IMG/VR virus record: IMGVR_UViG_3300023115_000010
Coordinates: 23,752 to 87,751 of that record
Direction: 5' to 3' (one strand)
Source of the DNA: a virus
DNA: 64,000 nucleotides
Shown: in pieces, positions 1 through 64,000 of the stretch
How the letters are laid out: the number at the start of each line of letters is the position of its first letter
Position numbering within the stretch: the first letter of the stretch is position 1
Notes under the pieces: model-generated
What the model saw: the letters and a program-made list of their open reading frames with translations, nothing else
Database searches by the model: none
What the model was told of the DNA's origin: nothing
Made by a program: the position numbers and the translations under genes

Positions 1-3000
1 GACAGCGGAGTAAATATTACTTCAAAAGGTGTAAGTAGTGAAATTATTGATAACTACTTCTTACGTAGCAGTAACAGTAGCCAGTATTTAATACTTGATA
101 GCGACGATACTTATACATTTACTATTGCAACTATTACAGATGTAAGTAGAAGTGGAAATATTGCGACTATAACAACTAGCGGAGCACATAATATTAATGT
201 GGACAACAACGTAAAAGTTGCAGTTGATGGCGATTCTACCTATAACCAAAACGGTTTGGTTTTAAGTGTTCCTACTACAACAACATTTACTATTGCAAAC
301 ACAGGCGACGACGAAGCTTCAAAATCAGTAACTGGTACTGCAAATACTATTGTAACAAGTGCTGATGGTAACGCCCAAGGTGCTGTTACAGAGTTACGTG
401 AAGGTATTGCAGCAAGTGTAGATAACGCTAACATTACAACTGGTAGCTTGTACACTCCTACAACTGGATCGGTAATATACGAAAATGTAAGTATGACAAG
501 CGTTACTGGATCTGGTACAGGTGCAAAAGCCAACATCACAGTGCAGGCTGGTGCTGTTACCGATGTTGACTTAACAAGAGGTGGTACAGGATATGTGGCA
601 GGTGATTTGTTAGGTGCAAATGCTAGTGACATTGGCGGCACAGGAAGTGGATTCCAGATTGAAATATCTGCTATTGAAGATAGAGCGTATGTAGACATCT
701 TAGGAGGCGAACTATTTGTTGCTAGTGCATCGAGTATTGACTTTGTTGAAGATAATACAGCAGTGCAAAATTCTAATGATATTAACTTTGATGACACTAT
801 TAGTCATAACTTCCTAGCTGGTACAACAGGCGGCGGCGGTGCAGTAAACTATACAGATAGTAGAGTAAGTGTCACAGCTCACGGATTTTCAAATGGCGAT
901 CCAGTAACATATGATACATTAGGAAATGTTGCAATCGGCGGATTGTTAAACGGTAATGTTTATTATATTAAAGTTGTTGATGATGACACCTTTGAGGTAT
1001 ATGACGACTTTAGTTTAAATACTCAGATAACTTTCTTAAGTACACCTGCTAACAACAACCACAACTTTACTAGATACACTGTAAACTTAACTGATAACAG
1101 TGTTGTCGTAGTAGGTCATGGATTTACAACAGGTGATGCTATAAGACTTGTATCACTGGAAGATGGTTCAACTAGCAACGCATTGCCAACTGTGAATGGC
1201 ACAGAGATTGCAAGTGGTGCAAGATTCTTTGTAGGAAGTGTCACACTTAACTCATTTACTATTCATGCTCTACGTTCAGACGCACTAAGCAGTATCAATG
1301 GACTAGTTACAAACGCTAGAGATATTGGCACTAATGGTGTAGGTAGTGCAAGAGTTATTAGAAATAATGTTCAAGTAAATGCTATTGTTAACACCTCAAG
1401 TAGATTGATTGCAAACTGGAACACTCTTGCTGTTACAAACATTGACGCAGAAAATATTATTTCTGGAACAATATCTCCAAGTAGACTTGGTGCAAGTGGG
1501 GTTGCTAATACTGAGACAGCATTGTTTGGTAACAGTGAATACAAGGTTGTTGTTCAAACCTTGAAAAAAGCTAATACAACAGATAACCCTATTACTCTTA
1601 CTGGTTTAAACACAGCAGGTGAGTATTATGGTGATCCAGTAAATATTGGTATTGCAAATGCCGACTATGATGCTGGAGGTACATTTAGTACACTAGGTGT
1701 AAGTCGTTTCTTGCAAACACAGTTTGATGTTAACTCAAACGGTAGTGGTGAAGTATTCATTAAAGATGGTATTGTTGATGCTGGTACACTTGACGGACTT
1801 GATAGTGCATACTTCTTAAACCCTGCTAACTTAACAAGTGCAGTTCCTGTTGATAGAGGTGGCACAGCTATAACAACCTATGCACAAGGTGATATACTTT
1901 ATGCACAATCGTCAGGTACATTAAATACTTTGAACATCGGTCGTGCAAATACTTTCTTAAAGTCAAACGGTAGTACACCTGAGTGGGGTACAGCACTTGA
2001 CCTTGCTGAAGGACTAGACGTTGGTTCAGCTAAACTTAGCTCTTCAAGCGATGCTCTAGGTCAAGTTTATAATACTAATGTTACGACTTTAGAACTTGGA
2101 GGCGATGCACACAATGTAAAAATAGGTAAGTCTAGCGACACGAGAGATATTACAAGTTTTGCTCTAGATTATGAAGCAACAGCATCTCAAGACGTTGTTG
2201 TAAACCTAGCAAGTATTGCTTTAGATACTAGTGAAGCAACTGCTAATGCTGAAAAAACTTTGGTATTTACAGACACTACTGGTGTAAAATATGGTATGAC
2301 AGTAACAGGAAGCGGAAGTATTCCTGCTAACACAACTGTTACTGGTGTAACCGAAACTGAAGTATTTTTGAGTGCAGAAACCACAGGTACTGTATTAACA
2401 TCAACAGAAATAACATTTACTTATACACCTGAAACACTTGGTGTCCGTGCAGGCGATTCTATTATTATTTCTGGAAGTAATGTCACAAACTTAGATGGTA
2501 CATGGCCAGTAAGTGGCGCAACTATTGATGCAACATCATTTACAGTTAGAACTGCTGCAAATGTGACTGCTGCCAATGTAGTAGTGCAAGGTACTATTTC
2601 TAAAGATAATACAATGGTTATTAGAAATAGAGATGTTATCTTTGGTAGTGCAGAAGCTAGTGCAAGTACTTCGAGTGCAGTTATTAGAGGCGAAAACGGT
2701 CTAGGAACAAACATTGCCGGCGGCGATATCACTATACAAGGCGGATTAAGCACAGGTAATGCAACTGGAGGTAGTGTTATAATCAAAACTGGTCAAACAG
2801 GTACTAGTGGAGAAACATTACAAACATCAACAACAAGAATGACCATTGATACCGAAGGCGATGTTACAGTAACTGGATACACAAACTTTAGTGATACAAG
2901 TGCTGTAAAACTTCCAGTTGGTACAACTGCTGAAAGACCTACAGCAGCACAAGGTCAAGTTCGTTACAACTCAACAGACGGACAATTTGAAGGATATGAT

Positions 3001-32901: not shown

Positions 32902-33909
32902 ATGGCATCATTAGCAGAAATTAGAGCAAAGCTCAAAGAACAAGAAAATCGTTCAAGCGGCAACACTAGCGGCGGTGGCGATAACGCAATTTACCCATTT
33001 TGGAATATGAAAGAAGGCGAGCAAGCAACGCTACGCTTTTTGCCTGATGGCGACGATTCAAACACTTTCTTTTGGAAAGAGCGTTTGATGATCAAACTTC
33101 CATTTGCTGGCGTAAAAGGTGAAACTGATTCACGTCCAGTACAAGTACAAGTTCCGTGTATGGAAATGTATGGCGAATCATGCCCAATCCTACAAGAGGT
33201 ACGTGGTTGGTTCAAAGATCCAAGTCTTGAGGATATGGGTCGTAAGTATTGGAAGAAGCGTTCATATATCTTCCAAGGTTTTGTTGTAGATGATCCATTG
33301 AAAGAAGATGCGCAACCAGAGAATCCTATTCGTAGATTCATTATTGGTCCACAAATCTTCCAACTAATCAAAGCAGCACTAATGGACCCAGATATGGAAG
33401 AACTACCAACAGATTACACTGCTGGTGTAGACTTCCGTTTGTCAAAGGGTACAAAAGGTGGCTATGCAGACTACGGCGCAAGTAATTGGGCACGTAGAGA
33501 GCGTCCACTAGGTGATGCAGAAATGGCTGCGATTAACAATCATGGATTGTTTAATCTCAACGACTTCCTTCCTAAAAAGCCAGGCGAAGTAGAACTTAAA
33601 GTTCTTACTGAAATGTTTGAAGCAAGTGTAGATGGCGAAGCATATGATCCAGATCGTTGGAGTCAATACTTCCGTCCAGCAGGTATGGCAGCACGTACAG
33701 GTGATCCAAACACAACACCTGCACCAACACCTGCTCCACAACCAGCAGCACCAGTACAAGAAACTGTAAATGATACTGGTTGGCAAGATCCAGCACCAGC
33801 AGCAACACCAGAGCCTGCACCTGCACCAGAAGCAGCGGCAGAACCAGCAGGTGATGCAGGTGGCGCACAAGACATTCTTGCAATGATCAGAGCACGTCAG
33901 AACCAATAA
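32902..33909 (+). CDS. 32: Single-stranded DNA-binding protein, gp32-like
   Basis: The product has 335 residues. The N-terminus (MASLAEIRAKLKEQENR) is the cooperativity helix of T4-like gp32. The core has NAIYPFWNMKEGEQATLRFL, PCMEMYGESCPILQEVRGWF, KYWKKRSYIFQGFVV and NPIRRFIIGPQIF, aromatic and basic residues of the OB fold; only two Cys of the T4 zinc site are evident. The tail (about residues 270-325) is Pro/Ala-rich and acidic, then ends in a helix (AQDILAMIRARQNQ); such tails contact replication partners. It coats ssDNA during replication and recombination. AGGAGG is a strong ribosome site. UvsX and UvsY follow. Confidence 0.92.
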   Translation: MASLAEIRAKLKEQENRSSGNTSGGGDNAIYPFWNMKEGEQATLRFLPDGDDSNTFFWKERLMIKLPFAGVKGETDSRPVQVQVPCMEMYGESCPILQEVRGWFKDPSLEDMGRKYWKKRSYIFQGFVVDDPLKEDAQPENPIRRFIIGPQIFQLIKAALMDPDMEELPTDYTAGVDFRLSKGTKGGYADYGASNWARRERPLGDAEMAAINNHGLFNLNDFLPKKPGEVELKVLTEMFEASVDGEAYDPDRWSQYFRPAGMAARTGDPNTTPAPTPAPQPAAPVQETVNDTGWQDPAPAATPEPAPAPEAAAEPAGDAGGAQDILAMIRARQNQ

Positions 33910-33958: not shown

Positions 33959-35050
33959 ATGGCTACAAAAGCATTCGATCCTTCCAAGTTTCGAAACTCA
34001 TTAACAAAATCTATTAAAGGTATGAGTGCAGGCTTTAATGATCCACAAGATTGGATCAGCACAGGCAACTTTGCACTTAACTATCTGCTCAGTGGTGATT
34101 TCCGTAGAGGTATTCCACTAGGCAAAGTAAGCGTATTTGCAGGCGAAAGTGGTGCAGGTAAATCGTATATTGTGTCTGGTAATATTGTCAAGTCAGCACA
34201 AGAACAAGGTATTTTTGTTGTACTGATTGACAGTGAAAATGCTCTTGATGAAAAGTGGCTACACGCCTTAGGTGTAGAAACAACAGAAGACAAAATCCTA
34301 AAACTCAATATGGCAATGATTGATGACGTTGCCAAAACTATTTCAACATTTATGGATGACTATCGTGCAATGGACGAAGCAGATCGTCCTAAAGTATTGT
34401 TTGTAGTTGATAGTTTGGGTATGCTTATGTCACCAACTGAAGTTAATCAGTTTGAAGCAGGTGATATGAAAGGTGATATGGGTCGTAAGGCCAAAGCACT
34501 AAAAGCATTGGTTACTAACTGTGTTAATATGTTTGGTTCATATAACGTAGGTATGGTTGTTACTAACCACACATACGCAAGTCAAGATATGTTTGATCCA
34601 GATGATAAGATCTCAGGCGGTAGCGGTTTTATCTATGCAAGCTCAATGGTTGTAGCAATGAAAAAACTAAAACTAAAAGAGGATGCAGATGGTAACAAAA
34701 CCAGCACAGTAAATGGTATTCGTGCAGCGTGTAAAGTTATGAAAACACGTTACGCAAAACCGTTTGAAGGTGTACAAGTTAAGATTCCATACGAAACAGG
34801 TATGGATCCATATTCAGGTATGTTTGATTTGCTTGAAGCAAAAGGCTTACTTGAGAAACAAGGTAATCGTTACAAATACATTGATAGTACAGGTGTTGAA
34901 ACACTAGAATATCGTAAGAATTGGACAGGTGACAAACTCGAAATGATCATGGCCGATTTACCGGCAAAAGAAGAACAAATGGTAAATATCGCTAACGCTG
35001 ACGAAGAAGCAGTGATTGATCATAACGAGGAGTTAGCCGAGAATGAATGA
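33959..35050 (+). CDS. uvsX: RecA-like recombinase UvsX
   Basis: The product has 363 residues. Walker A is GESGAGKS (residues 62-69), the catalytic Glu region follows in LIDSENALDEKW, Walker B is VLFVVDSLGML, and the loop-2 region is near GMVVTNHTYASQDMFDPDDK with SGGSGFIYASSMVVAMKK. These are standard features of T4-like UvsX, which forms filaments on ssDNA for strand exchange, recombination-dependent replication and repair. The C-terminus is acidic. AGGAG precedes the ATG. The end overlaps the next ORF by 8 bp. Neighbours gp32 and UvsY are its working partners. Confidence 0.95.
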   Translation: MATKAFDPSKFRNSLTKSIKGMSAGFNDPQDWISTGNFALNYLLSGDFRRGIPLGKVSVFAGESGAGKSYIVSGNIVKSAQEQGIFVVLIDSENALDEKWLHALGVETTEDKILKLNMAMIDDVAKTISTFMDDYRAMDEADRPKVLFVVDSLGMLMSPTEVNQFEAGDMKGDMGRKAKALKALVTNCVNMFGSYNVGMVVTNHTYASQDMFDPDDKISGGSGFIYASSMVVAMKKLKLKEDADGNKTSTVNGIRAACKVMKTRYAKPFEGVQVKIPYETGMDPYSGMFDLLEAKGLLEKQGNRYKYIDSTGVETLEYRKNWTGDKLEMIMADLPAKEEQMVNIANADEEAVIDHNEELAENE

Positions 35051-41961: not shown

Positions 41962-43144
41962 ATATATAGAACAATATCTCACTCACTATGTAAGAGACAT
42001 TGGTGTTGAAGATAAAAACAAGCAAATATTAGAAAGCATAGAACGCCAATGTGCAAAAGGAACAGCACTTACAGATAGGCAATACAACTTGTGCAAAACC
42101 ATTCTGTCTAGTGTGTTTCCAGAAATGCCTACTGATATTTTATCCAAACAACCTTTGCGTACTATTGATCGTTCTAAATATATTAAAATAGTAGATACAG
42201 AAGATGTATATTCTAATATGGTATACGAATCTTCAAAATCTGACTGGAAATGGATTAAAGTAAGATTTCCTTTTAGCAAAAAAGATATAATGAAGATAAA
42301 CAGCATACAGTTCAAGCATAAAGAATATGTGCATAGAAAAGGATCGCATGAGCATTTTTATAGACTAAATGAAGATATGATTTTTCAAGTTATAAAACTG
42401 TTCAAAGACACATCGTTTGAAATAGATCAAGAACTATTAGATTATTACAACCAAATCTGTTATGTACTGTCAAACGAATTTGAGTACAAAACCTGCTATA
42501 ATAATCAACTTTTTTCAAATATCAAAGACGATAGTAAAAGTTTGATCGAAAAAGAACTTGGAAAAGAGTACACAGGATTACATTTACTAGATAGGAAAAG
42601 AAGATACGGATTAGACTTTGTAGAGTATAATATTAGTTCATCATTGCCTGCTGTTATTGCATCAAGAGAAGATATTAAATGTCTAGTAAAACCAAGTCAG
42701 TATACGATTCAAAATCTAGCAGAATCTATATTACATCTTAATAGATTTCCTATACTAGTTTTAATAGACGATAACGAAGAATACAATCAAGTATATAATG
42801 TATATAATGCATTTAAATACTTTATAAGTGATGAAAAACAAAGTGTTTTGTTTAGAACTGATAACAAAGACGATTCTGAAAATATTAATACCTTTGTAAA
42901 AGACAATAGATTAAACAACTGGGTTGACAACACCACTGAAATAGTGTATATTAAAAAGAATAAACTACCAAAGTTATTATTGAGAACAAAGTGGATGCCA
43001 ATGTGTGTGTTAAGTTTGAGTAGTATACCAACAACTAAACATGTAAAAAAGTATATAGTAAATAGTGATCTATTTATATATTATGACGAAGAGATTCCAC
43101 TAACTGAAAGATATGCTAGATGGCAACATGTAAACTTATCATAG
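41954..43144 (+). CDS. Protein of unknown function upstream of uvsW
   Basis: The product has 396 residues. I do not recognise it. The first 80 residues are helical with LTDRQYNLCKTILSSVFP; the middle has WKWIKVRFPFSKKDIMKINS and HEHFYRLNEDMIFQVIKLF; a late region (HLNRFPILVLIDDNEEYNQV, KLPKLLLRTKWMPMCVLSLS) looks like Rossmann-type strands without Walker motifs. It overlaps uvsW by 25 bp, so it is translated with it; a helicase-like degenerate or accessory role for UvsW is one possibility (inference). Confidence 0.6.
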   Translation: MFEYIEQYLTHYVRDIGVEDKNKQILESIERQCAKGTALTDRQYNLCKTILSSVFPEMPTDILSKQPLRTIDRSKYIKIVDTEDVYSNMVYESSKSDWKWIKVRFPFSKKDIMKINSIQFKHKEYVHRKGSHEHFYRLNEDMIFQVIKLFKDTSFEIDQELLDYYNQICYVLSNEFEYKTCYNNQLFSNIKDDSKSLIEKELGKEYTGLHLLDRKRRYGLDFVEYNISSSLPAVIASREDIKCLVKPSQYTIQNLAESILHLNRFPILVLIDDNEEYNQVYNVYNAFKYFISDEKQSVLFRTDNKDDSENINTFVKDNRLNNWVDNTTEIVYIKKNKLPKLLLRTKWMPMCVLSLSSIPTTKHVKKYIVNSDLFIYYDEEIPLTERYARWQHVNLS

Positions 43145-44583
43145 AAGATGAAGTAAACATCAAACTAGAAGGATTAGATGTAGATGTACGGCGAAAGTTA
43201 TCAAATGCTCTCAAGTTTGATGTGCCATACGCACGATATATGCCACAGTATAAACTTGGCAGGTGGGACGGCAAAGTTGCTTTTTTTGGTATTGGCGGTA
43301 CTGGCTATGTTAATCACTTGGATATTGTTACTGAAGTACTTGCTAAAAACAATGTTCAAATAGTTGATATTGAAGACAGACGTCATCCAATCGACTTGAG
43401 CTTTGCACCAGTAACAGAACGCTATTGGGCTGACCAAGGTGTATGCTGGCCTAAAGGACATCCTGCAGAAGGTGAAGAAATCATTCTGCGTGACTATCAA
43501 GTCGAAGCAATCAACAACTTTGCAAACAATCCACAAAGCCTGCAACAGATTGCAACAGGTGCAGGTAAAACTATTACAACTGCTACACTGTCACACATGA
43601 GTGAAAAGTACGGTCGTAGTCTTGTTATTGTTCCTAACAAAAGTCTAGTTGAACAAACTGAAGAAGACTATATTAACTGTGGACTAGATGTAGGTGTGTA
43701 TTTTGGCGATAGAAAGATGTTAAACAAAACACATACTATTTGTACATGGCAAAGTTTAAACATTTTAGACAAAAGACACAAGGATGGCGAAGCAGTTTTA
43801 AGTCTTGCAGAGTTTTTAGAAGGTGTAAGCACAGTTATTGTGGACGAAGTACACCAAGCAAAAGCAGAAGTTCTTAAAAACTTGTTAACACGTAACTTGC
43901 GTAATGCTCCGATACGTTGGGGACTAACAGGCACTGTACCTAAAGAAAAGTTTGAGTTTGAAAGTATACACGCAAGTTTAGGTCCAGTCATTGGCGAGAT
44001 TACTGCAAAAGAACTACAAGACAAAGGAGTGCTTTCAGCATGTCATGTTAATATTGTGCAACTTATTGACACAGTAGCACATACAAACTATCAAGAAGAA
44101 TTAAAATATTTAACAACAAATCAAGCAAGAATCGAATATATAGGCAAACTATTAAACAGTGTAAAACAATCAGGCAATACTCTAATACTTGTAGATAGGA
44201 TTAGTGCAGGCGAGATGCTACAAGAACTTATACCAGGATCAACATTCGTAAAAGGCGATGTAAAACTAAAGGATAGAAAAGATGCGTATGACGAAATCAA
44301 CACGGCAGATAATCAAGTGGTTATTGCCACTTATGGTGTCGCTGCTGTTGGTATTAATATCCCTCGTATTTTTAACCTTGTACTTATTGAACCTGGAAAA
44401 AGTTTTGTTAGAGTTATTCAATCTATAGGTAGAGGCGTTAGAAAGGCAAAGGACAAAGACTTCGTGCAAATATGGGATCTTACAAGCACTTGTAAGTTTG
44501 CGAAGCGGCACCTTACTCAACGTAAAAAGTTTTACAAAGAGGCGCAGTATCCATTTACAATAGAAAAAGTAGATTGGAAATAA
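43120..44583 (+). CDS. uvsW: SF2 helicase UvsW
   Basis: The product has 487 residues, near T4 UvsW (503). An N-terminal domain (residues 1-110, with YMPQYKLGRWDGKVAFF) precedes the helicase core: RDYQVEAINNF (Q-like motif), QIATGAGKT (motif I), VIVDEVHQAKAE (motif II, DEVH), WGLTGTVPK (motif III), NTLILVDRISAGEMLQELI (motif IV), VIATYGVAAVGINIPRI (motif V) and QSIGRGVRKAKDKD (motif VI). UvsW unwinds R-loops and branched DNA and helps switch from origin to recombination-dependent replication. The next gene starts at the following base. Confidence 0.95.
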   Translation: MATCKLIIEDEVNIKLEGLDVDVRRKLSNALKFDVPYARYMPQYKLGRWDGKVAFFGIGGTGYVNHLDIVTEVLAKNNVQIVDIEDRRHPIDLSFAPVTERYWADQGVCWPKGHPAEGEEIILRDYQVEAINNFANNPQSLQQIATGAGKTITTATLSHMSEKYGRSLVIVPNKSLVEQTEEDYINCGLDVGVYFGDRKMLNKTHTICTWQSLNILDKRHKDGEAVLSLAEFLEGVSTVIVDEVHQAKAEVLKNLLTRNLRNAPIRWGLTGTVPKEKFEFESIHASLGPVIGEITAKELQDKGVLSACHVNIVQLIDTVAHTNYQEELKYLTTNQARIEYIGKLLNSVKQSGNTLILVDRISAGEMLQELIPGSTFVKGDVKLKDRKDAYDEINTADNQVVIATYGVAAVGINIPRIFNLVLIEPGKSFVRVIQSIGRGVRKAKDKDFVQIWDLTSTCKFAKRHLTQRKKFYKEAQYPFTIEKVDWK

Positions 44584-52319: not shown

Positions 52320-52719
52320 TTGGAAAAAGCCTACAGCACAAATGCTAGGTAGGTGGCAACCTTGGCATGATGGACACACAGCACTATTTAAAAAAGCATT
52401 GCTTGAAACAGGACAAGTTATTATTATGGTGCGAAGTGTTTTTATGGCAGAAGGTGATGTAAGCGGTGGCCGTACAATGATTCAAGACGATAATCCTTTT
52501 GGCTTCGACGATGTTTTTAATAACATAGAACAAGCACTAGATAAAGAAGGCTTTACAAATGGACAAGAATATGTTATTATGCAAGTCCCAAACATTGTAG
52601 ATATTAGCTATGGTCGTGGCGTTGGGTATACTTTTACTGAGCATGACTTAGGTGAAGAAATACACAACATCAGTGCTACAAAGATCAGAGCACAAATGAG
52701 AGAAGAAGGTAAACTTTAA
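52312..52719 (+). CDS. Small nucleotidylyltransferase
   Basis: The product has 135 residues. MLGRWQPWHDGHTALFKKAL has the HxGH motif and EIHNISATKIRAQMRE the ISxTxxR motif of cytidylyl-/adenylyltransferases of the NMN-adenylyltransferase superfamily. It transfers an AMP or CMP group to a phosphate; the substrate is unknown. Paired with an APS-kinase-like enzyme immediately upstream (8-bp overlap), and overlapping the mini DnaE-like gene downstream by TAATG. Confidence 0.78.
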   Translation: MFDWKKPTAQMLGRWQPWHDGHTALFKKALLETGQVIIMVRSVFMAEGDVSGGRTMIQDDNPFGFDDVFNNIEQALDKEGFTNGQEYVIMQVPNIVDISYGRGVGYTFTEHDLGEEIHNISATKIRAQMREEGKL

Positions 52720-53285
52720 TGCCTGATATTGATATCGACTTTGCTGATCGTAGTGTTATCTTATCTAAGATACAACACCGTGTGGCAAAACTTGATACAG
52801 GAAAGAAGCACAACACTGGTGTGTATGTAACCGAGTGTCCACACAATCCTGTGGACAATCTTGCTACTATTGATTATAAAACAGCAGAAGATAGAGGTTA
52901 CTTCAAACTAGACTTTCTTAATGTTAACATCTATAATGATGTTCGAGATGAAGCACACTTACACACACTAATGGAAAGTGAACCACAATGGGACTTACTA
53001 TTACACAACGATTTCACAGATCTTATCTTTCATATCTCCGGTCACGGAGATATACTCCGCACAACAAAGCCTCAGAGTGTAGAGCAGTTAGCAGCAGTGT
53101 TAGCGATGATTCGGCCTGCCAAACGCCATCTTGTCAACGAAACTTGGCAAACGATATTAGAAAATGTGTGGGTCGCACCCACTGACGGAAGTTATTATTT
53201 TAAGAAAGCACACGCTATTGCATATGCTGTAAGTGTTGTAGTGCATATGAATCTAGTGTGTGAACAACTTAGCGAGGCTTCTTAA
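52719..53285 (+). CDS. Mini DnaE-like (C-family polymerase) protein, 188 aa
   Basis: The product has 188 residues and starts exactly at the polymerase motif: MPDIDIDFADR (D5 and D7 match the DnaE PDxDxDF catalytic pair). KKHNTGVYVTE parallels KHAGGVVI, RGYFKLDFLNVNIYNDV parallels KFDFLGLRT with the third Asp (D65), LIFHISGHGDILRTTKP parallels GVFQLESxGM, LAAVLAMIRPAKRHL follows, and YYFKKAHAIAYAVSVVVHM parallels FNKSHSAAYALVSY. All three catalytic Asp are present, but the PHP, thumb and much of the fingers are missing. I recall similar short proteins in cyanophages, unassigned. Activity is unproven. Overlaps the convergent gene 53269-53637. Confidence 0.7.
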   Translation: MPDIDIDFADRSVILSKIQHRVAKLDTGKKHNTGVYVTECPHNPVDNLATIDYKTAEDRGYFKLDFLNVNIYNDVRDEAHLHTLMESEPQWDLLLHNDFTDLIFHISGHGDILRTTKPQSVEQLAAVLAMIRPAKRHLVNETWQTILENVWVAPTDGSYYFKKAHAIAYAVSVVVHMNLVCEQLSEAS

Positions 53286-54863: not shown

Positions 54864-55856
54864 ATGAGCATCGTATCTGATCTTTTGAATGTATATCTAC
54901 CTGCAAAGCGCAAAACTACCCCTAGTGGGTGGACCAGTTTCAATGCGCCTTGTTGTGTTCACAATAATGAAAATGCAGATACAAGAGGCAGAGGCGGTGT
55001 GATTTATGAAGGCGAAGTTATCAGTTATCACTGTTTTAACTGCGGCTTCAAAGCAAGTTGGCAACCAGGACGTAATCTCAGTTATAAGTTCAAAAAACTT
55101 TTGGAGTGGTTAAACACTCCTGACAGTGATATTACAAAACTTGCACTAGATGTAATGCGTGAAAACGAAGGTGTAGAAGTTCAAAAATATTCTGTTGAAC
55201 TGCCTGAGTTTGCTACAACACAACTACCAGAAGGTGCAGAGCCATTGTCTAAACACATGTGGGCAGAGGCTGGTCATTTAGATGAAAGAATCACACGTTG
55301 CTTTCAATATATGTTAGAACGTGATTTAAGTATCGAGGACATAGATTATCACTGGTCGCCAACACTTGCTTATAGAGATAGACTTATTATACCTTTCTAC
55401 TACGAGGGGCGTATAGTTGGATATACAGCCCGTACAGTAGGGGATAACAAAGTAAAGTATCTAACTGACTCACAGCCGGGTTATGTGTTTAACTTGGATG
55501 CACAAAGACCGCACAAGGTATTTTGTATAGTATGCGAAGGACCTATTGATGCACTACATGTTGAAGGCTGTGCACTTACTGGAAGTGATATAAATGATGC
55601 ACAAGCACTGCTACTCAACAAACTTAACAAAGACATTTATGTTGTACCTGATAGAGACAAGGCAGGTAGTAAACTTGTAGAGCAGGCTATCGATAGAGGT
55701 TGGCATGTTAGCATGCCAGAGTGGGATCAGGATATCAATGACATAGGTGATGCTGTAGCTAAGTACGGTAGACTGTATACATTATACAGCATAGCAAGTG
55801 CTGCGGAAAGCAGCCCATTAAAAATTAGATTGAGAGCAAAGAAATGGTTTGGTTAA
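54864..55856 (+). CDS. 61: DNA primase, gp61-like
   Basis: The product has 330 residues, near T4 gp61 (342). The N-terminal zinc ribbon uses C30/C31-x-H33 and YHCFNCGF (C57, C60), with NADTRGRGG between. The TOPRIM domain has IVCEGPIDALHVEG (Glu) and VVPDRDKAGSKLVEQ (DxD). The middle (YRDRLIIPFYYEGRIVGYTA) is the usual RNA-polymerase basic region. It makes primers with helicase gp41, encoded 3 kb downstream. It is transcribed from a sigma70-like promoter with a predicted leaderless mRNA. The following small gene overlaps its end. Confidence 0.93.
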   Translation: MSIVSDLLNVYLPAKRKTTPSGWTSFNAPCCVHNNENADTRGRGGVIYEGEVISYHCFNCGFKASWQPGRNLSYKFKKLLEWLNTPDSDITKLALDVMRENEGVEVQKYSVELPEFATTQLPEGAEPLSKHMWAEAGHLDERITRCFQYMLERDLSIEDIDYHWSPTLAYRDRLIIPFYYEGRIVGYTARTVGDNKVKYLTDSQPGYVFNLDAQRPHKVFCIVCEGPIDALHVEGCALTGSDINDAQALLLNKLNKDIYVVPDRDKAGSKLVEQAIDRGWHVSMPEWDQDINDIGDAVAKYGRLYTLYSIASAAESSPLKIRLRAKKWFG

Positions 55857-56490: not shown

Positions 56491-56569
56491 TATCTTGTTT
56501 TGGGCAGTATACTATCAAGTATGCAAGTTGCCAGAACGCCTTGTACAGGCGGCTATTGACGCAGCATGA
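56468..56569 (+). CDS. Tiny ORF (33 aa), unknown function
   Basis: ATG 56468 overlaps the end of the previous tiny gene, and its TGA overlaps the carbamoyltransferase ATG (ATGA at 56566). Short hydrophobic N-terminus (IYNILFWAVYYQVCKL). Reported for the overlap pattern; it may act only to couple translation. Confidence 0.35.
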   Translation: MIEIVIYNILFWAVYYQVCKLPERLVQAAIDAA

Positions 56570-58071
56570 TTACTTGGGGTATAAGTGCTAACAGTCACGA
56601 TGCTGCATTAGCGGTGTTTACAGATGACGGATTAGAGTTTGCAAGTCACAGTGAACGCTTCAGTGGCGTAAAAAACGATGCACATTTAAATGATAAATTA
56701 ATAGAGTATGCAAAACAATGGGGAGAACCTGATGAAGTTATTTGGTATGAAAGACCCTTTATCAAAACTCTTAGACAACTTAGAGCAGGCCAAGGACTTC
56801 GGTTGGGTGAAAACAATATTCGTAAGTATCTTGGATCTTATGGGATACATGCTCCTATTAGGTATACTGATCATCATCTTGCCCATGCTGCTGCCGGCTT
56901 TTATACTAGTGATTTTACAGAAGCCAGCGTTATTGTTTGCGACAGCATTGGAGAATTTGATACACTCACTATCTGGAATGCGGACGAAGAAAAAGGGCTC
57001 AGGAGAATATATTCACAACAATACCCACACTCCGTGGGCCTATGGTACTCGGCAATCACGCAAAGAATAGGTCTTAAGCCACAAGAGGACGAATATATCC
57101 TCATGGGTATGGCTGCATATGGTGACCCTCACAGATTATTCAACGATATCCTCACTGACTTTTTCTATTTGCCGCCAGAAGACAACCTATTAAACACATT
57201 CAACGACAAGCCCTGTATCAAGTTAAAACACAATCTGCATAGGGGGTGCACGTGGTGGCGACCCGATCTTACCACCGAACAAGACTACTTTGACATTGCT
57301 GCTGCCACCCAGGCAGTTTATCAGTATATACTCAAGATAATCAGCAACTGGACCAAGTGGCAAGGTACGAGTTCTAATCTTGTGTTCATGGGAGGGTGTG
57401 CACTAAATTGTTCGGCCAACGGACTACTTACTAGTGATTGGGACAACGTACACATAATGCCTAACCCGGGAGATGCAGGGTCTAGTATAGGTGCTGTATT
57501 AGCCCATAAAAAACAGTTTATGCCCATGCAGCATATGTACACAGGGTATAACATTGAAGGAGATTATCCAGTTGAAGAAGCATTACAAGAACTACTTACT
57601 ACTGGTATTGTTGGTGTGGCCAACGGTAGGGCAGAATTCGGGCCCAGAGCTTTTGGACACCGCTCCTTACTTGCAGACCCCCGAGGCACAGACATCAAAG
57701 ACCGAGTCAATGAAATCAAGCGCAGACAAAAGTTTAGACCGTTTGCTCCAGCCGTACTTGAAGAGCACGCCTCCACTTATTTCTCCGGACCCACAGGACC
57801 CTTTATGCAATACACTTCAACTTGCACGGATCCTGGACTACCTGCAATCATCCACGGGGACGGCACCTCTAGGGTACAGACAGTTTCTGCAGATCAAAGC
57901 GTGGGCTTTAGAAAACTGTTAGAGCGTTGGTACGAAGAAACAGGCTGCCCTATACTGTTAAACACCAGTTTAAATATCAAAGGAAAACCGATAGTTAATA
58001 CAGTAGAAGATGCACAGGCATTTGAACAGCATTATGGAGTAAAAGTATGTACGGCTGCTGTAAAAACGTAA
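56566..58071 (+). CDS. Carbamoyltransferase (NodU/CmcH family)
   Basis: The product has 501 residues. GISANSHDAALAVF starts the N-terminal ASKHA-like fold; DHHLAHAAAGFY is the metal-binding HxxxH site; SVGLWYSAITQRIG and EDEYILMGMAAYGDP follow. The C-terminal YrdC-like domain has VANGRAEFGPRAFGHRSLLADP and CPILLNTSLNIKGKPIVN. It transfers a carbamoyl group from carbamoyl phosphate via carbamoyl-AMP to a sugar or antibiotic hydroxyl; known in marine phages near polysaccharide genes. Base composition is richer in G+C here (55% in 57241-57300, against 25% in 35761-35820), suggesting separate origin. ATGA overlap upstream; a Cys-rich small ORF overlaps its end. Confidence 0.92.
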   Translation: MITWGISANSHDAALAVFTDDGLEFASHSERFSGVKNDAHLNDKLIEYAKQWGEPDEVIWYERPFIKTLRQLRAGQGLRLGENNIRKYLGSYGIHAPIRYTDHHLAHAAAGFYTSDFTEASVIVCDSIGEFDTLTIWNADEEKGLRRIYSQQYPHSVGLWYSAITQRIGLKPQEDEYILMGMAAYGDPHRLFNDILTDFFYLPPEDNLLNTFNDKPCIKLKHNLHRGCTWWRPDLTTEQDYFDIAAATQAVYQYILKIISNWTKWQGTSSNLVFMGGCALNCSANGLLTSDWDNVHIMPNPGDAGSSIGAVLAHKKQFMPMQHMYTGYNIEGDYPVEEALQELLTTGIVGVANGRAEFGPRAFGHRSLLADPRGTDIKDRVNEIKRRQKFRPFAPAVLEEHASTYFSGPTGPFMQYTSTCTDPGLPAIIHGDGTSRVQTVSADQSVGFRKLLERWYEETGCPILLNTSLNIKGKPIVNTVEDAQAFEQHYGVKVCTAAVKT

Positions 58072-58211
58072 TACCCGAAAAACACACAGATTATATTAGT
58101 GTTGACACGCATACATATTGTGTTACAATACACTACTGTAAGAACTGTGGTAGTCTAAAGACAACAACAAACGTAAGGCACGTAAGAGATGGCAACAAGA
58201 CAGAACACTGA
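58047..58211 (+). CDS. Small Cys-rich ORF (54 aa) before gp41
   Basis: ATG 58047 has GGAG seven nt upstream. The product has CC, then YCVTIHYCKNCGS, a CxnCxxC zinc-ribbon-like pattern, and a basic end. It overlaps the carbamoyltransferase end by 25 bp and the helicase start by 23 bp. A sigma70-like promoter lies inside it. Plausible small zinc protein; weak without homologues. Confidence 0.45.
   Translation: MYGCCKNVIPEKHTDYISVDTHTYCVTIHYCKNCGSLKTTTNVRHVRDGNKTEH
58102..58129 (+). promoter_or_regulatory. Sigma70-like promoter for the gp41 helicase
   Basis: TTGACA at 58102-58107, 16 nt, TACAAT at 58124-58129, about 53 nt before the likely start region of the mRNA at gp41. Lies inside the small Cys-rich ORF. 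Confidence 0.6.
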
Positions 58212-59604
58212 TTATGGATATGATATCCAAAAAGTATATTTAGAAATGTTTATGACAGATGCTGAGAGCTTTGTACGCTGTCAGGGTGTGTTTGATCCAA
58301 ATACATTTGATAGACGTTTAGCAGATCCAGCAAAGTTTATTAAGGATTATGTGGAAGAACACAATGCACTTCCAACGTTTGATATGGTCAATGCTGCTAC
58401 TAACAGTGACTTGAAAGATCCAGGACAACTGCAAGAGAATCACTATGACTGGTTGTTGCAGGACTTTGAAACATTCAGCAAACACAAAGCACTAGAGGCA
58501 GCTATCTTAAAGAGTGCCGACTTGTTGGAAAGCGGGCAATATGGTGCATGTGAGGACTTGGTTAAGAACGCTGTACAGATTGGTTTGCAAAAAGACTTGG
58601 GTACAGACTACTTTGCAGATCCAAGAGCACGACTAGAAGGAATCAAAGACAAAAACGGACAAGTAAGCACAGGTTGGCCGGCACTGGATAAGAAACTGTT
58701 TGGAGGATTCAATAGAGGCGAACTAAACATCTTTGCAGGTGGTAGTGGATCTGGTAAGAGTTTGTTCTTGGCTAACTTGGGTGTGAACTGGTGTTTGCTG
58801 GGTATGAATGTATTGTATCTAACATTCGAACTTAGTGAAGCATTGGTTAGTATGCGTGTAGACAGTATGACAACTGATATTGCAAGTCGTGATATTTTTA
58901 AAAGCATCGACGATGTTGAAATGAAAGTTAAGATGATTGGCAAGAAGGCAGGCGCATTCCAAGTCAAGTACATGCCCACAGGTAAGAATGCAAATGATTT
59001 GAGAGCATATATCAAAGAATATGAAATCAAAACAGGACGCAAACTTGATGTTGTGCTAGTAGACTACTTGGACTTGATGCATCCAAATGCTGTTAAGATT
59101 TCAGCAGAAAACTTGTTTGTTAAGGACAAGTATGTGTCAGAAGAACTGCGCAACTTGGCTATGGAACTGAACACAGTGTTTGTTACAGCATCGCAGTTAA
59201 ACAGAAGTAGCGTTGAAGAGATTGAGTTTGACCACAGCCACATATCAGGTGGTATTTCAAAGATCAATACAGCAGACAACTTGATTGGTATCTTTACAAG
59301 TAGAGCAATGCGTGAACGTGGACGTTATCAAATACAGTTGATGAAAACACGTAGTAGTTCGGGTGTAGGACAAAAGATTGATTTGGAGTTCGACGTAGAT
59401 AGTTTGCGTATACGTGACTTGGGTGAGGACGAAGAATATCAAGAGTTCCAGAAGCGTAAGAGCACAGTGTTTGATCAAATCAAACGTGGTAATGGGTCTC
59501 CGGCAGTTGAGAAACAAGATCCAAGTGAGGGCGATACTGTAGGTAAAATCAAAGCAGAAGCAAGTACAACACAGTTAAAAAACTTTATCAATAATTTACA
59601 ATAG
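58189..59604 (+). CDS. 41: Replicative DNA helicase, gp41-like
   Basis: The product has 471 residues, near T4 gp41 (475). An N-terminal helical domain (residues 1-150) is followed by GGFNRGELNIFAGGSGSGKS (Walker A), LANLGVNWCLLGMNVLYLTF with the catalytic Glu, DVVLVDYLDLMHPN (Walker B), and VTASQLNRSS (sensor), then HISGGISKINTADNLIGIF and the arginine region LMKTRSSSGVGQKIDLEFD. It unwinds DNA ahead of the fork and binds primase gp61. It has its own promoter. Confidence 0.93.
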   Translation: MATRQNTDYGYDIQKVYLEMFMTDAESFVRCQGVFDPNTFDRRLADPAKFIKDYVEEHNALPTFDMVNAATNSDLKDPGQLQENHYDWLLQDFETFSKHKALEAAILKSADLLESGQYGACEDLVKNAVQIGLQKDLGTDYFADPRARLEGIKDKNGQVSTGWPALDKKLFGGFNRGELNIFAGGSGSGKSLFLANLGVNWCLLGMNVLYLTFELSEALVSMRVDSMTTDIASRDIFKSIDDVEMKVKMIGKKAGAFQVKYMPTGKNANDLRAYIKEYEIKTGRKLDVVLVDYLDLMHPNAVKISAENLFVKDKYVSEELRNLAMELNTVFVTASQLNRSSVEEIEFDHSHISGGISKINTADNLIGIFTSRAMRERGRYQIQLMKTRSSSGVGQKIDLEFDVDSLRIRDLGEDEEYQEFQKRKSTVFDQIKRGNGSPAVEKQDPSEGDTVGKIKAEASTTQLKNFINNLQ

Positions 59605-59674: not shown

Positions 59675-61330
59675 ATGGAAACAGATTTAGAAAACATTGA
59701 AAGGCTATTAAAAAGATTTAAAAGGCCAGTTCCACAGGAACAGATATACCAAGAGAGACTTGCTGAAGAGTTTGAACTTATACTCAAACTTCGCTTCACA
59801 GATTACTTCATACAAATATGTGACATTATAGACCTTACCACCGATATCAAACACATGACACGTGGATCGGCGGGCAGTAGTCTAGTGTGTTACTTGTTGG
59901 GCATTACAGACGTGGATCCCATCAAGTGGAAGATACCTGTGGCGAGGTTTATGAACCCACTCCGTGACGACCTGCCGGATGTTGATATTGATTTTGAACA
60001 TTGGCGACAGACAGAAGTAATGAATCGCATATTCAAAAAGTGGCCCGGCATGACGGCAAGGTTGAGCAACTATGTCACGTACAAACCAAAGAGTGCTAGA
60101 CGTGAGGCAGCCAAACGTCTTGGTGCCACAGGTAGACTTCCTAGAAACTTTACATATGAAAGTGTAGGAGTAGATCCTACAGAAGCCAAACGCATTGAAC
60201 GCAAACTATTAGGCAAAAAAAGAGCAATATCAAAACACTGTGGAGGCATCGTAATGTTCACTAGAAAACTACCAAAATCACTTATATCAGAAGACAACCA
60301 AATATTATTAGACAAACACGAAGTTGAGGACTTAGAACACCTCAAAGTCGACATCCTAGCCAACAGAGGCTTGAGTCAACTACTAGAAATAGACCCGCAT
60401 ACTGCACTAGAAGACTATCCAGAAACAGATGAAGCAACAGCAGCATTGCTTGCTAGAGGCGATGTACTGGGTGTTACACAAGGGGAAAGCCCTGCAATGC
60501 GTAGACTGTTTAGAGCAATACAACCTACGTGTGTGCAGGACTGTGTGTTTGCTACAGCCCTTGTAAGACCCGTAGCAATGAGCGGAAGACAAAAAGCAGC
60601 AGTGTTCCAAGATTGGAGCCAAGAAGCTGTACAAGACAGCATTGTGTTTGAAGACGATGCTATTGAGATTATAAGTAGTATTATAGGAGTAGATGGATAT
60701 GAAGCAGACAGCTACAGACGAGCATTTGCTAAAAAGAATGACGAAAAGATTTTGGAGTTTGTGGAAAGAATGGGTAGCAATCCAAGAAGAGCACAGGCAA
60801 TGGCTGCACTACAGGAGTTATCCGGTTTCGGACTATGCCGCGCTCATGCTGTTAATCTCGGAAGACTCATCTGGGCACTTGCATACCAAAAAGCACACAA
60901 CCCAGAAGCATTCTGGAGAGCCAACCTCAAGCACTGCCAAGGAAGCTATAGAGGATGGGTCTACCAAACTGAAGCACATAGAAGAAATCTGCTCAGCGAG
61001 CCTGGTTGGTGGCATAGAGGATTTCCAACAGGACTAGGTGTACAGCAGCGTTTCTTAGAACGTGTGAACTTTGCAGGTGTTATTGCCAACGGTAGAACAT
61101 TCCGTGGTAAAAACGGACGCTACGTTACGTTCTTAACATTGGGTACCAACTATGGCGAATATGTGGATGTTACTATACAACGTCCATTTCAATACCGAGA
61201 CGGAGACATTGTTAGCGGCTCAGGTGTGATACGTCATCAAAACAACAGCGACTATATTAATTGTGTAGACGCTCGATTATGGACTTTCTCTCAATGGAAG
61301 CGACATCAGTTGGGTGAGACCATCTCCTAA
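59675..61330 (+). CDS. DnaE-like C-family DNA polymerase (PHP-less, 551 aa)
   Basis: The product has 551 residues; bacterial DnaE has about 1160. Palm: MTRGSAGSSLVCYLLGITDV (residues 61-80) matches RGSxAGSLVAY...ITDxDP, PDVDIDFEHW (101-110) has catalytic D104 and D106, KHCGGIVMFT (187-196) parallels KHAGGVVI, and EHLKVDILANRGL (221-233) has the third Asp, D226. Fingers: GVTQGESPAMRRLFRAIQPT, ALVRPVAMSGRQKAAVF and FGLCRAHAVNLGRLIWAL parallel the DnaE GVFQxES and SHS motifs. An OB-like end (FTLGTNYGEYVDVTIQR-type) follows. The N-terminal PHP domain is absent. All catalytic residues seen in bacterial DnaE are kept. Position after gp41 supports a role in DNA synthesis or repair. Confidence 0.82.
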   Translation: METDLENIERLLKRFKRPVPQEQIYQERLAEEFELILKLRFTDYFIQICDIIDLTTDIKHMTRGSAGSSLVCYLLGITDVDPIKWKIPVARFMNPLRDDLPDVDIDFEHWRQTEVMNRIFKKWPGMTARLSNYVTYKPKSARREAAKRLGATGRLPRNFTYESVGVDPTEAKRIERKLLGKKRAISKHCGGIVMFTRKLPKSLISEDNQILLDKHEVEDLEHLKVDILANRGLSQLLEIDPHTALEDYPETDEATAALLARGDVLGVTQGESPAMRRLFRAIQPTCVQDCVFATALVRPVAMSGRQKAAVFQDWSQEAVQDSIVFEDDAIEIISSIIGVDGYEADSYRRAFAKKNDEKILEFVERMGSNPRRAQAMAALQELSGFGLCRAHAVNLGRLIWALAYQKAHNPEAFWRANLKHCQGSYRGWVYQTEAHRRNLLSEPGWWHRGFPTGLGVQQRFLERVNFAGVIANGRTFRGKNGRYVTFLTLGTNYGEYVDVTIQRPFQYRDGDIVSGSGVIRHQNNSDYINCVDARLWTFSQWKRHQLGETIS

Positions 61331-61787
61331 TACCTATTGCACGGCGAGGATCAAACAAATCATAGCGCACTTGGTTTTCTTGATTCCCGCCTAGTATTAC
61401 CCAGTATTCTCGGTCGTTGTGTGTTTGTGTTTCCACATAGAAACCGACATGTCCTTGCCAGCCTTGTGTACCTCTTGGAAAAACAACAACATCTCCACGT
61501 TGTATATCAGCACGTTCTACATGTTCTCCCCAATAAAGAAAACTACGTGCCATTAATGGAGGATAGTTGCTTTGATCATTCAAGTTGGGTATGTCGTCTA
61601 GTTCTAACACGGCATTAACAAAAGCAGCACACCATTCAGTACGCACAGGATCAACACCCACAAACTCACGTATCTGTTTGCGATCAGCTCTTTCACTAAG
61701 ACCTATATAAGGCTGTGCAGTGACCACACTGTCATTTACACTTGGTCCGCAAGCCCCTAATATCAAAACCAAACCCATCCATCTCAT
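61257..61787 (-). CDS. Lipoprotein peptidoglycan hydrolase (CHAP/TIGR02594-like)
   Basis: The product has 176 residues. The N-terminus (MRWMGLVLILGACGPS) is a signal peptide with a lipobox LGAC, so the protein would be lipid-anchored after cleavage. The body has VRTEWCAAFVNAVLE (catalytic Cys), ADIQRGDVVVFPRGT and WQGHVGFYVET (catalytic His), then LGGNQENQVRY, the plan of CHAP-like amidases/endopeptidases. It may cut peptidoglycan during lysis from the outer or inner membrane. ATG 61787 is 6 nt after a minus-strand late core; TTG 61790 is alternative. Its 3' end overlaps the DnaE-like gene by 74 bp on the other strand. Confidence 0.82.
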   Translation of the reverse strand: MRWMGLVLILGACGPSVNDSVVTAQPYIGLSERADRKQIREFVGVDPVRTEWCAAFVNAVLELDDIPNLNDQSNYPPLMARSFLYWGEHVERADIQRGDVVVFPRGTQGWQGHVGFYVETQTHNDREYWVILGGNQENQVRYDLFDPRRAIGIRRWSHPTDVASIERKSIIERLHN

Positions 61788-61793
61788 CAAACT

Positions 61794-61806
61794 TATTTAT
61801 TAAATA
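61794..61806. promoter_or_regulatory. Palindromic bidirectional late promoter
   Basis: TATTTA-T-TAAATA: one core on each strand. Minus: ATG 61787 follows after 6 nt. Plus: ATG 61811 follows after 4 nt. The second such element in the window. Confidence 0.7.
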
Positions 61807-61810
61807 CTCC

Positions 61811-62947
61811 ATGCAAGACTATAGTGGTTACTTTGTGATTAGAAGAGAACTGTATTCTCCGTATCCGCATCCTAAATACAATCGTGAACTAGAAAATCAC
61901 ACTTGGTATACAATCACAGATTGTGTACACGAACTACGTGAAAAAAGACCCATCAGTGCAGCAGAGTTTGATGCTGAACCAAGATGCATGATACACTCAC
62001 AGTATTGGCCAGCACTACAAAAAACTGATGTCAGAATCATTATAAAAAATGATCTTGAACATCGTTATCGTAGACTCACAGAAGATGTGTACACGCACAT
62101 ACATCACACGTTAAACATGAGTGAAATCAATCCCAAACATGTGTTTTATATCACCAGTAATCTACATGAACATCGTGTGTATGCAGCATGGGCTGAAAAA
62201 AATCACATACCCGATTCTCAAAGAATACACGCACTTGGTGTGTTTGGATGGAGTGAGTTTAGTAGAGTTCGCTACACAGAGTTTGATCACAGTTGGCTCA
62301 CTAGACCTAAAACAAAAAAATATGTGTGCTTTAATCGCAGAATGCACCTAGCACCGCACCGTCACCTTGCACTGTATCACCTGCAAAGACTTGGCGAAAT
62401 AGATCAAGGTTTTGTGAGCAACCCTGTGACATACGAAAGAGAATACATCAACCAATATGCTTTGTGCGCCGACACTTACACAAACTCAGGTGTGCAAAGA
62501 ACACTAGATACCAAACGAGATTTAGGTGCAGGTGGTAGTGCAGATTTACGCCCCTGGAAACTGTACAGAGACAGCAACTTCAGCATAGTCACAGAAAGTG
62601 AATATTCCACAGAAAACTCAACCATGAGATTCTACACAGAAAAAACTGCACGAGCCATACTGTACGGACACCCATTTGTGATCATAGGCGAATGTGGTGC
62701 TAACACAGATCTAGCACAACTGGGTTGTGAACCATACACAGAACTGTTTGATATGAGCACAGATCTCATACCCAACATGCAACAAAGAATATGCAGTCAG
62801 TTTGACAGCATTCGTTTTGATTGGGAGCCTGGTGAGATTGTGCAACTACTGCGAGATAAAATTGCACACAACAGAAACAGCCTACTTGAAGATAGATACA
62901 ATCAACGAGCAGCAAAAAAAATCATAAGGTTAGCAAATGAAGTATGA
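61811..62947 (+). CDS. Glycosyltransferase-like protein of a marine viral family
   Basis: The product has 378 residues from ATG 61811; the frame is open to 61742 but that lies before the late core. KKYVCFNRRMHLAPHRHLAL, SNFSIVTESEYST and FYTEKTARAILYGHPFVIIG form the pattern NRxxxxHR...SIVTET...F(I/L)TEKxxxxIxxxxPF, known from fucosyltransferase-like sequences in viruses and bacteria. The N-terminal half (YITSNLHEHRVYAAWAEKNH) is Rossmann-like. It is paralogous to the next gene, and overlaps it by ATGA. The acceptor is unknown. Confidence 0.65.
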   Translation: MQDYSGYFVIRRELYSPYPHPKYNRELENHTWYTITDCVHELREKRPISAAEFDAEPRCMIHSQYWPALQKTDVRIIIKNDLEHRYRRLTEDVYTHIHHTLNMSEINPKHVFYITSNLHEHRVYAAWAEKNHIPDSQRIHALGVFGWSEFSRVRYTEFDHSWLTRPKTKKYVCFNRRMHLAPHRHLALYHLQRLGEIDQGFVSNPVTYEREYINQYALCADTYTNSGVQRTLDTKRDLGAGGSADLRPWKLYRDSNFSIVTESEYSTENSTMRFYTEKTARAILYGHPFVIIGECGANTDLAQLGCEPYTELFDMSTDLIPNMQQRICSQFDSIRFDWEPGEIVQLLRDKIAHNRNSLLEDRYNQRAAKKIIRLANEV

Positions 62948-64000
62948 TTATTGGTACAGTTTAGACGGAAACAGACCCACTCCCAGACTGTGGGGATTGG
63001 ATATACCAGAAACAGAAGATCCTGGTTTGCCCAACACCTTGTTTGAAATACACGGACTAGAACTGGAACGCTGGCATGTGGATCAACCTCAACAGGATTT
63101 GCCTCAAGCGGTAATACAAAATCTTGTGCAGCATCCAGGCAGCACGGTGTTGATAATGGCAGCCAGTGAATACACACGAGCATATGAATCCAGTTATGAA
63201 CACACATATAGAAAGTGGGTAAAACGTCACAGAATAAGACCCAATCAAATCACTGTGATTGTGTGCAGTGACAGTTTACGAGATCGTGGCAAACGACTGT
63301 TTCCTGATCTCACATGGGGCGTATACGACTATTGGGAACATCAACCTAGACTGTGGTTTGAAGAATGGCACTGTGCAGGAGATCTACCTGAGCCTGATCG
63401 ACGATTTACCTGTCTAAATAGACGTCCACATGAAATGCGAGCAGCACTGTACACAGATCTAATGACGGTAAGAGCATATAGACACACGGCATATCACACC
63501 ATGGGCAACAGAAACTATCACAACTTTGACACAGCAGAAATGGATTTAGAAGTGATACGTTCAGGCGGCAATGATCCAATCAACTATTTAGATTCAGATA
63601 TAGAACGCAGTGCAGCTGAGTTTTATCGCAATCCACAGACGCATGAAGCACCAGGTGAACCCATTAGCTTTCAAGATCGCAGTCTGTTTGACATCAGTGC
63701 TCAAGGTTGCCTAAACATAATCACAGAATCATATCCCAATCAACGACAGCACAGTCCCACAGAAAAAACCTACAGAGCTTATGCTGTTGCTAGACCACAC
63801 ATAACATTTGCACACTGTCATTGGGAAAGCGCAAATCTCCAACCAAGAGGTTATCACAGTTATCCTTGGGATACGGATGTGGATGCTTGTAGAGATCCTG
63901 CTAAACGCTATAGACTGTGTAGAGATCGAATACTGCGTTGGGCACAAATGAGCAAAGAAGACTTCCAGCAAGAAATGGCTTATCCACTACACATAGCACA
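62937..64000 (+). CDS. Glycosyltransferase-like paralogue of 61811 (3' partial)
   Basis: Begins at ATG 62937 and is open to the end of the window (354 residues seen). RRFTCLNRRPHEMRAALYTD, QGCLNIITESYPNQRQHSPT and EKTYRAYAVARPHITFAHCH repeat the motif order of the gene before (LNRR...IITES...TEKT...ARPH). The N-terminal part (VLIMAASEYTRAYESSYEHT) is different. The region is richer in CCC, CTG and GGC codons than the genes at 30-45 kb. Same family; function inferred only from the shared motifs. Confidence 0.7.
   Translation, partial: MKYDYWYSLDGNRPTPRLWGLDIPETEDPGLPNTLFEIHGLELERWHVDQPQQDLPQAVIQNLVQHPGSTVLIMAASEYTRAYESSYEHTYRKWVKRHRIRPNQITVIVCSDSLRDRGKRLFPDLTWGVYDYWEHQPRLWFEEWHCAGDLPEPDRRFTCLNRRPHEMRAALYTDLMTVRAYRHTAYHTMGNRNYHNFDTAEMDLEVIRSGGNDPINYLDSDIERSAAEFYRNPQTHEAPGEPISFQDRSLFDISAQGCLNIITESYPNQRQHSPTEKTYRAYAVARPHITFAHCHWESANLQPRGYHSYPWDTDVDACRDPAKRYRLCRDRILRWAQMSKEDFQQEMAYPLHIA

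Follow-up and report, generated by a model that had tools for sequence, protein, structure and literature searches.

A dnaE-like gene beside the gp41 helicase

The window, a 64,000-base stretch, comprises bases 23752-87751 of an 87,751-base IMG/VR record. Along this record we found the T4-type genes gp20, 21, 23, 15, 13, 18, 4, 17, uvsX, uvsW, 61 and 41 in that order; the record is a fragment (87.7 kb) of a T4-type jumbo phage, and the sequence-only reading had called the genome T4-like. The replication and recombination genes in the window lie on the plus strand and include a gp32-like single-strand binding protein with a weak match (32902-33909; PF08804, 2.6e-5, just under the curated cut-off), the recombinase uvsX (33959-35050), the helicase uvsW (43120-44583), a gp61-type primase (54864-55856; phrog_47, 1.3e-38) and the DnaB-type replicative helicase gp41 (58189-59604; phrog_19, 1.7e-69). 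Separated from gp41 by a 70-nt gap, and on the same strand, is a dnaE-like gene (59675-61330, ATG start) that encodes a single-chain C-family polymerase core of 551 aa; most members of the window's lineage also have gp41 next to it.

Several other genes share this region. A Nol-like carbamoyltransferase (56566-58071, plus strand) sits between the primase and the helicase and occupies the same place in a 330-kb relative, G054. A CHAP/NlpC-like peptidase of the tail lysozyme/endolysin type (61257-61790, minus strand, 177 aa) runs into dnaE at its 3' end from the opposite strand, and it is followed by two adjoining proteins of ~380-400 aa (61742-63998, plus strand) that match no family and are not conserved 3' of dnaE in relatives. 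Between 35730 and 52320, metabolic genes are found amid the replication genes: an FkbM methyltransferase (36281), a mannose-6-P isomerase fusion (36870), an NAD epimerase (46724), a UDP-sugar dehydrogenase (47584), a DAHP synthase (48651) and a cytidylyltransferase (50107).

Profile searches place the 551-aa protein inside the C-family. Pfam assigned DNA_pol3_alpha to residues 11-229 (E 1.2e-42) and the finger domain to residues 243-365 (5.5e-16), the top PHROG was phrog_405, DNA polymerase (6.5e-68), and the top NCBIfam model was an error-prone DNA polymerase subfamily (PRK05672, 3e-52, far under its cut-off). In the PDB the protein's relatives are DnaE from mycobacteria, E. coli and Thermus (2e-31). 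We then aligned the protein with E. coli DnaE and 24 others, which located RGSAGSS at residues 63-69 (59861-59881; E. coli R362-S368), PDVDIDF at 101-107 (59975-59995), KHCGG at 187-191 (60233-60247; K510-G514) and KVD at 224-226 (60344-60352; K553-D555), all on the plus strand. In this alignment R63, D102, D104, K187, H188, K224 and D226 correspond to R362, D401, D403, K510, H511, K553 and D555 of E. coli K-12 DnaE. Since D102, D104 and D226 align to D401, D403 and D555, the catalytic triad of E. coli DnaE, they constitute the triad here, and the catalytic residues are invariant across 31 diverse homologues. The four motifs are thus present as the sequence-only reading described them and its claim of a complete triad holds, but the aspartates it numbered D104 and D106 are one motif position off and should read D102 and D104, alongside D226. 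Together with the structural matches below, these results confirm, far beyond chance, that the protein is the DnaE-like C-family polymerase core that reading had supposed.

An AlphaFold model built from the 31 homologues reached a pLDDT of 81.9 and a pTM of 0.81, with residues 298-324 poorly modelled. Foldseek returned DnaE structures as the best matches (4.6e-24), with a TM-score of 0.67 by query length and a DnaE-type, Pol-beta-like palm in the model, followed by weak matches to SSB and RPA OB folds in the PDB. These matches and the modelled strands point to a beta-rich, OB-like fold at the C-terminus (residues 455-536; 61037-61282, plus strand). The architecture in the model is therefore palm, thumb, fingers and a C-terminal OB-like fold.

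Equally characteristic is what the protein omits. The absence of a PHP domain, also claimed from the sequence at the outset, is borne out: Pfam found none in the protein, the 87.7-kb record yielded none anywhere, E. coli DnaE residues 1-89 and 104-307 (PHP) have no counterpart in the alignment, and a phmmer search with the E. coli PHP as query detected no separate PHP gene among the collected contigs. E. coli residues 813-825, 828-857 and 860-963, most of the 813-963 helix-hairpin-helix and beta-binding region, are likewise without counterpart. Beyond E. coli residue ~1028 the alignment is patchy and yields no tau-binding C-terminal domain, and no clamp-binding motif is conserved in the 437-465 linker, with no conserved Q-x-x-L-F among the 31 aligned homologues. 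This pattern bears on whether the protein might be non-catalytic or directed against the host, for example as a decoy for host Pol III subunits. The retained parts could compete for DNA or nucleotides; however, the parts that bind the host clamp, tau and exonuclease are exactly those lost, and the catalytic residues do not vary among the 31 homologues, so that we consider such a function improbable.

gp43 and a second C-family gene in related phages

T4-type phages replicate with the B-family polymerase gp43. We searched for this polymerase (phrog_262, PF00136), with T4, HTVC008M and LR756508.1 as positive controls. No gp43 was found on the 87.7-kb record or on dozens of fragments, up to 183 kb in length, that carry dnaE and belong to the window's lineage. 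The T4-type clamp gp45 (phrog_223) was absent from 15 related records, fragments of limited coverage, and gp44 (phrog_168) gave no full-length match, only weak P-loop hits, in related fragments that are similarly limited. The absence of gp43, gp45 and full-length gp44 from the window-lineage fragments tested (up to 183 kb) would fit a scenario in which dnaE has replaced gp43 as the main replicase of this lineage. Yet the relative G054, whose gp20, gp17 and gp41 are 82%, 82% and 75% identical to those of the window record and whose gene order is the same, carries gp43 ~190 kb upstream of gp41. Because by this synteny the fragments stop well before the gp43 position, the missing gp43 is uninformative. 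Moreover, gp43 and gp44 are both found in G039, a close relative (its gp20 is 87% identical to that of the window record) whose contig stops at gp23, ahead of the dnaE site.

Co-occurrence was observed directly elsewhere. Five contigs of a sister subclade carry dnaE and gp43 together, divergently oriented and a few hundred to ~1,700 bases apart; gp43 is complete in four of them, and in the fifth (G095) the end of the contig truncates it. The 484-kb phage LR756508.1 likewise has both gp43 and a dnaE homologue, 36% identical to that of the window. Its gp43 (259363-267278) is spread over two open frames, of 1022 and 625 aa, and contains extra sequence, a layout suggesting an intein, an intron or a split gene. 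Collectively, these observations led us to reject the argument that a lack of gp43 means replacement by DnaE, and we regard replacement as very improbable.

Conversely, G054 has gp43, gp61 and gp41 and lacks dnaE, so the fork does not need dnaE. Because both polymerases co-occur in relatives and G054 has gp43 without dnaE, we view dnaE as an optional extra beside gp43. The sequence-only reading had likewise placed gp43 outside the window and suggested that the C-family polymerase could be an addition serving repair, lagging-strand or recombination synthesis. Its status as an addition is upheld for the relatives, through co-occurrence in the sister subclade and in LR756508.1 and through gp43 at its expected far position in the syntenic G039 and G054; for the window's own phage, of which the record is a fragment, we infer gp43 from these relatives.

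A second C-family gene, overlooked in the sequence-only reading, lies at 52719-53285 (plus strand; phrog_11778, 1.5e-60). Its 188-aa protein starts with MPDIDIDF, keeps KHNTG, KLDFL, IRPAK and KKAHA, and shares ~50% identity as well as its local context with a gene from the Pseudomonas phage PA5oct. Iyer et al. (2021, PMC7824862) described a split minimal Pol III alpha in jumbo phages of group 2.2, and by its motifs and family match the 188-aa protein is identified as the C-terminal half of that enzyme. The N-terminal partner (phrog_11127, with GVGRGSS) occurs on the relatives G060 and G068, where ~26 kb separate it from gp43; its coordinates are 1492-2025 (minus strand) at locus L450 and 238-795 (plus strand) at L451, both from relatives of the window phage. 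It was not found in G039 or G054, where it probably falls just beyond the contig ends. A 172-aa piece in phage CBB (PMC5259590) is probably the same N-terminal half. From sequence comparison, the unsplit 551-aa form represents a lineage separate from the split Pol III alpha.

Distribution, selection and origin of the unsplit form

Three scans, some overlapping, recovered ~240 viral locus records with dnaE homologues. Within 2.5 kb of dnaE, gp41 was present in 135 of 240 records (115 on the same strand and 20 on the opposite one), gp43 in 19, on the opposite strand, and uvsX in 7; none of these markers was present in 78, many of them short contigs. The records are related and partly duplicated, and the counts therefore describe several arrangements rather than independent events.

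These arrangements inform the idea that the enzyme acts in lagging-strand synthesis, working with the gp61-gp41 primosome to extend RNA primers before handing over to gp43. There is a bacterial precedent, as Bacillus DnaE extends primers and hands over to PolC. In most of the window's lineage dnaE lies directly 3' of gp41, on the same strand and near gp61, and this helicase adjacency fits a lagging-strand role equally well. In contrast, dnaE is on the strand opposite gp41 in G016- and G018-like relatives and beside gp43 or uvsX in another subclade, G054 has gp61, gp41 and gp43 without it, and the tau and clamp attachment regions are missing from the protein. By analogy with Bacillus a lagging-strand or primer-extension polymerase may be at work here, though we think it somewhat unlikely.

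Throughout the sister subclade a ~100-aa protein is encoded directly 3' of dnaE, usually overlapping its stop codon (L494 4667-4966, L518 4667-4984, L521 4671-4985 and ~70 more). It matches no family above cut-off (a weak Imm32 match lies below), has no counterpart in the window, and is a possible partner subunit.

The dN/dS of dnaE was 0.05-0.11 (NG86; eight comparisons with relatives computable, five saturated), and the gene is under strong purifying selection. Most of 161 homologues are 542-579 aa long. In the phylogenetic tree the unsplit phage proteins form one fully supported clade of their own (100/100), apart from DnaE1, DnaE2 and other phage DnaE, on a long stem of 1.3 changes per site. 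A reduced alignment grouped the clade with DnaE2 (93/88); this support is moderate, carries a long-branch warning and may be caused by long-branch attraction. By identity, the closest bacterial sequences are plasmid 'error-prone' polymerases of DnaE2 type, at ~30%, and no relative was confirmed when 84,980 genomes of bacteria and archaea were scanned at the sensitivity used. At half the bacterial DnaE length, the gene could be taken for a piece of a host dnaE that is decaying or was captured recently. Its selection, its near-constant length in most homologues, its fully supported clade on a long stem and the outcome of the genome scan all stand against such an origin, which we judge extremely unlikely. 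The papers and annotated phages that we searched contain no description of the unsplit form; the nearest phage record in the annotated collection is 36% identical and its homologue carries no annotation.

Proposed role and comparison with known polymerases

We favour, with about even confidence in the reading as a whole, an auxiliary, exonuclease-less C-family polymerase, predicted to be active, in a jumbo T4-type phage that uses gp43 as its main replicase. The loss of PHP and of the clamp region speaks against a processive replicase with proofreading, and the invariant catalytic residues and purifying selection argue for activity. Dispensability in G054 and co-existence with gp43 argue for an auxiliary role, and the location of the gene next to gp41, gp43 or uvsX favours a site of action at forks or recombination intermediates. 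In bacterial enzymes the PHP domain serves as a proofreading site or scaffold. The phage protein retains the palm that binds nucleotides, together with the catalytic triad, the fingers and an OB-like fold on the template side; it has shed PHP, the helix-hairpin-helix and clamp-binding part, and the C-terminus that binds tau. It would be expected to synthesize short stretches at low fidelity, with neither proofreading nor dependence on the host clamp; its recruitment to DNA would fall to proteins of the phage's replisome or recombination machinery. By analogy with bacterial DnaE2, it would most likely fill gaps and carry synthesis across lesions or at recombination intermediates, in the wake of the gp43/gp41/UvsX machinery or alongside it. 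We tentatively favour this gap-filling or translesion role over lagging-strand synthesis.

A more speculative extension, which we consider doubtful, is a fork with divided labour, in which gp43 and the minimal C-family polymerase each serve one strand or one of them extends primers. With the split Pol III alpha such a phage would deploy three polymerases of two unrelated folds, and the 551-aa enzyme would be free-standing, without PHP, clamp region or tau. Bacterial C-family polymerases carry PHP, and their proofreading, structural stability and clamp attachment are tied to domains that are missing here. A conserved, selected, PHP-less single chain would define the minimal working C-family polymerase. 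The split and unsplit forms also represent two separate lineages in which T4-type jumbo phages add a bacterial-type polymerase to a replisome of archaeo-eukaryotic type, and this makes division of labour at the phage fork testable.

Among known systems, the split Pol III alpha is similar in being a phage-specific, minimal C-family enzyme without PHP that co-exists with gp43, in the same phages. It consists of two distant genes of ~170-200 aa each and lacks the thumb (PMC7824862), whereas the 551-aa protein is a single chain with a thumb, full fingers and an OB-like fold, on a separate branch of the tree. DnaE2 shares the C-family core and is closest by identity and NCBIfam; like the 551-aa protein, it has no tau-binding C-terminus (PMC3919608). 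The DnaE2 proteins compared are 1049-1099 aa long and adjoin imuA and a Y-family gene, whereas the phage enzyme is half that size and lacks PHP, and no imuA/imuB or Y-family partner turned up in those window ORFs that were scanned with Pfam. E. coli Pol III alpha (DnaE1) has the same catalytic triad and motifs, palm, fingers and OB-like fold, but also the PHP, helix-hairpin-helix/beta-binding region and C-terminal domain that the 551-aa protein lacks. Full-length DnaE of Streptomyces, Rhizobium and other phages, and of group 3.2 jumbo phages, is likewise a C-family polymerase in a phage; the proteins compared measure 931-1238 aa and fall with DnaE1, not with the 551-aa clade, and that of group 3.2 jumbo phages has a PHP domain and is their defining replicase (Iyer et al., PMC7824862). 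T4 gp43, finally, shares genome and replisome context with dnaE in relatives of the window phage, but its B-family fold is unrelated.
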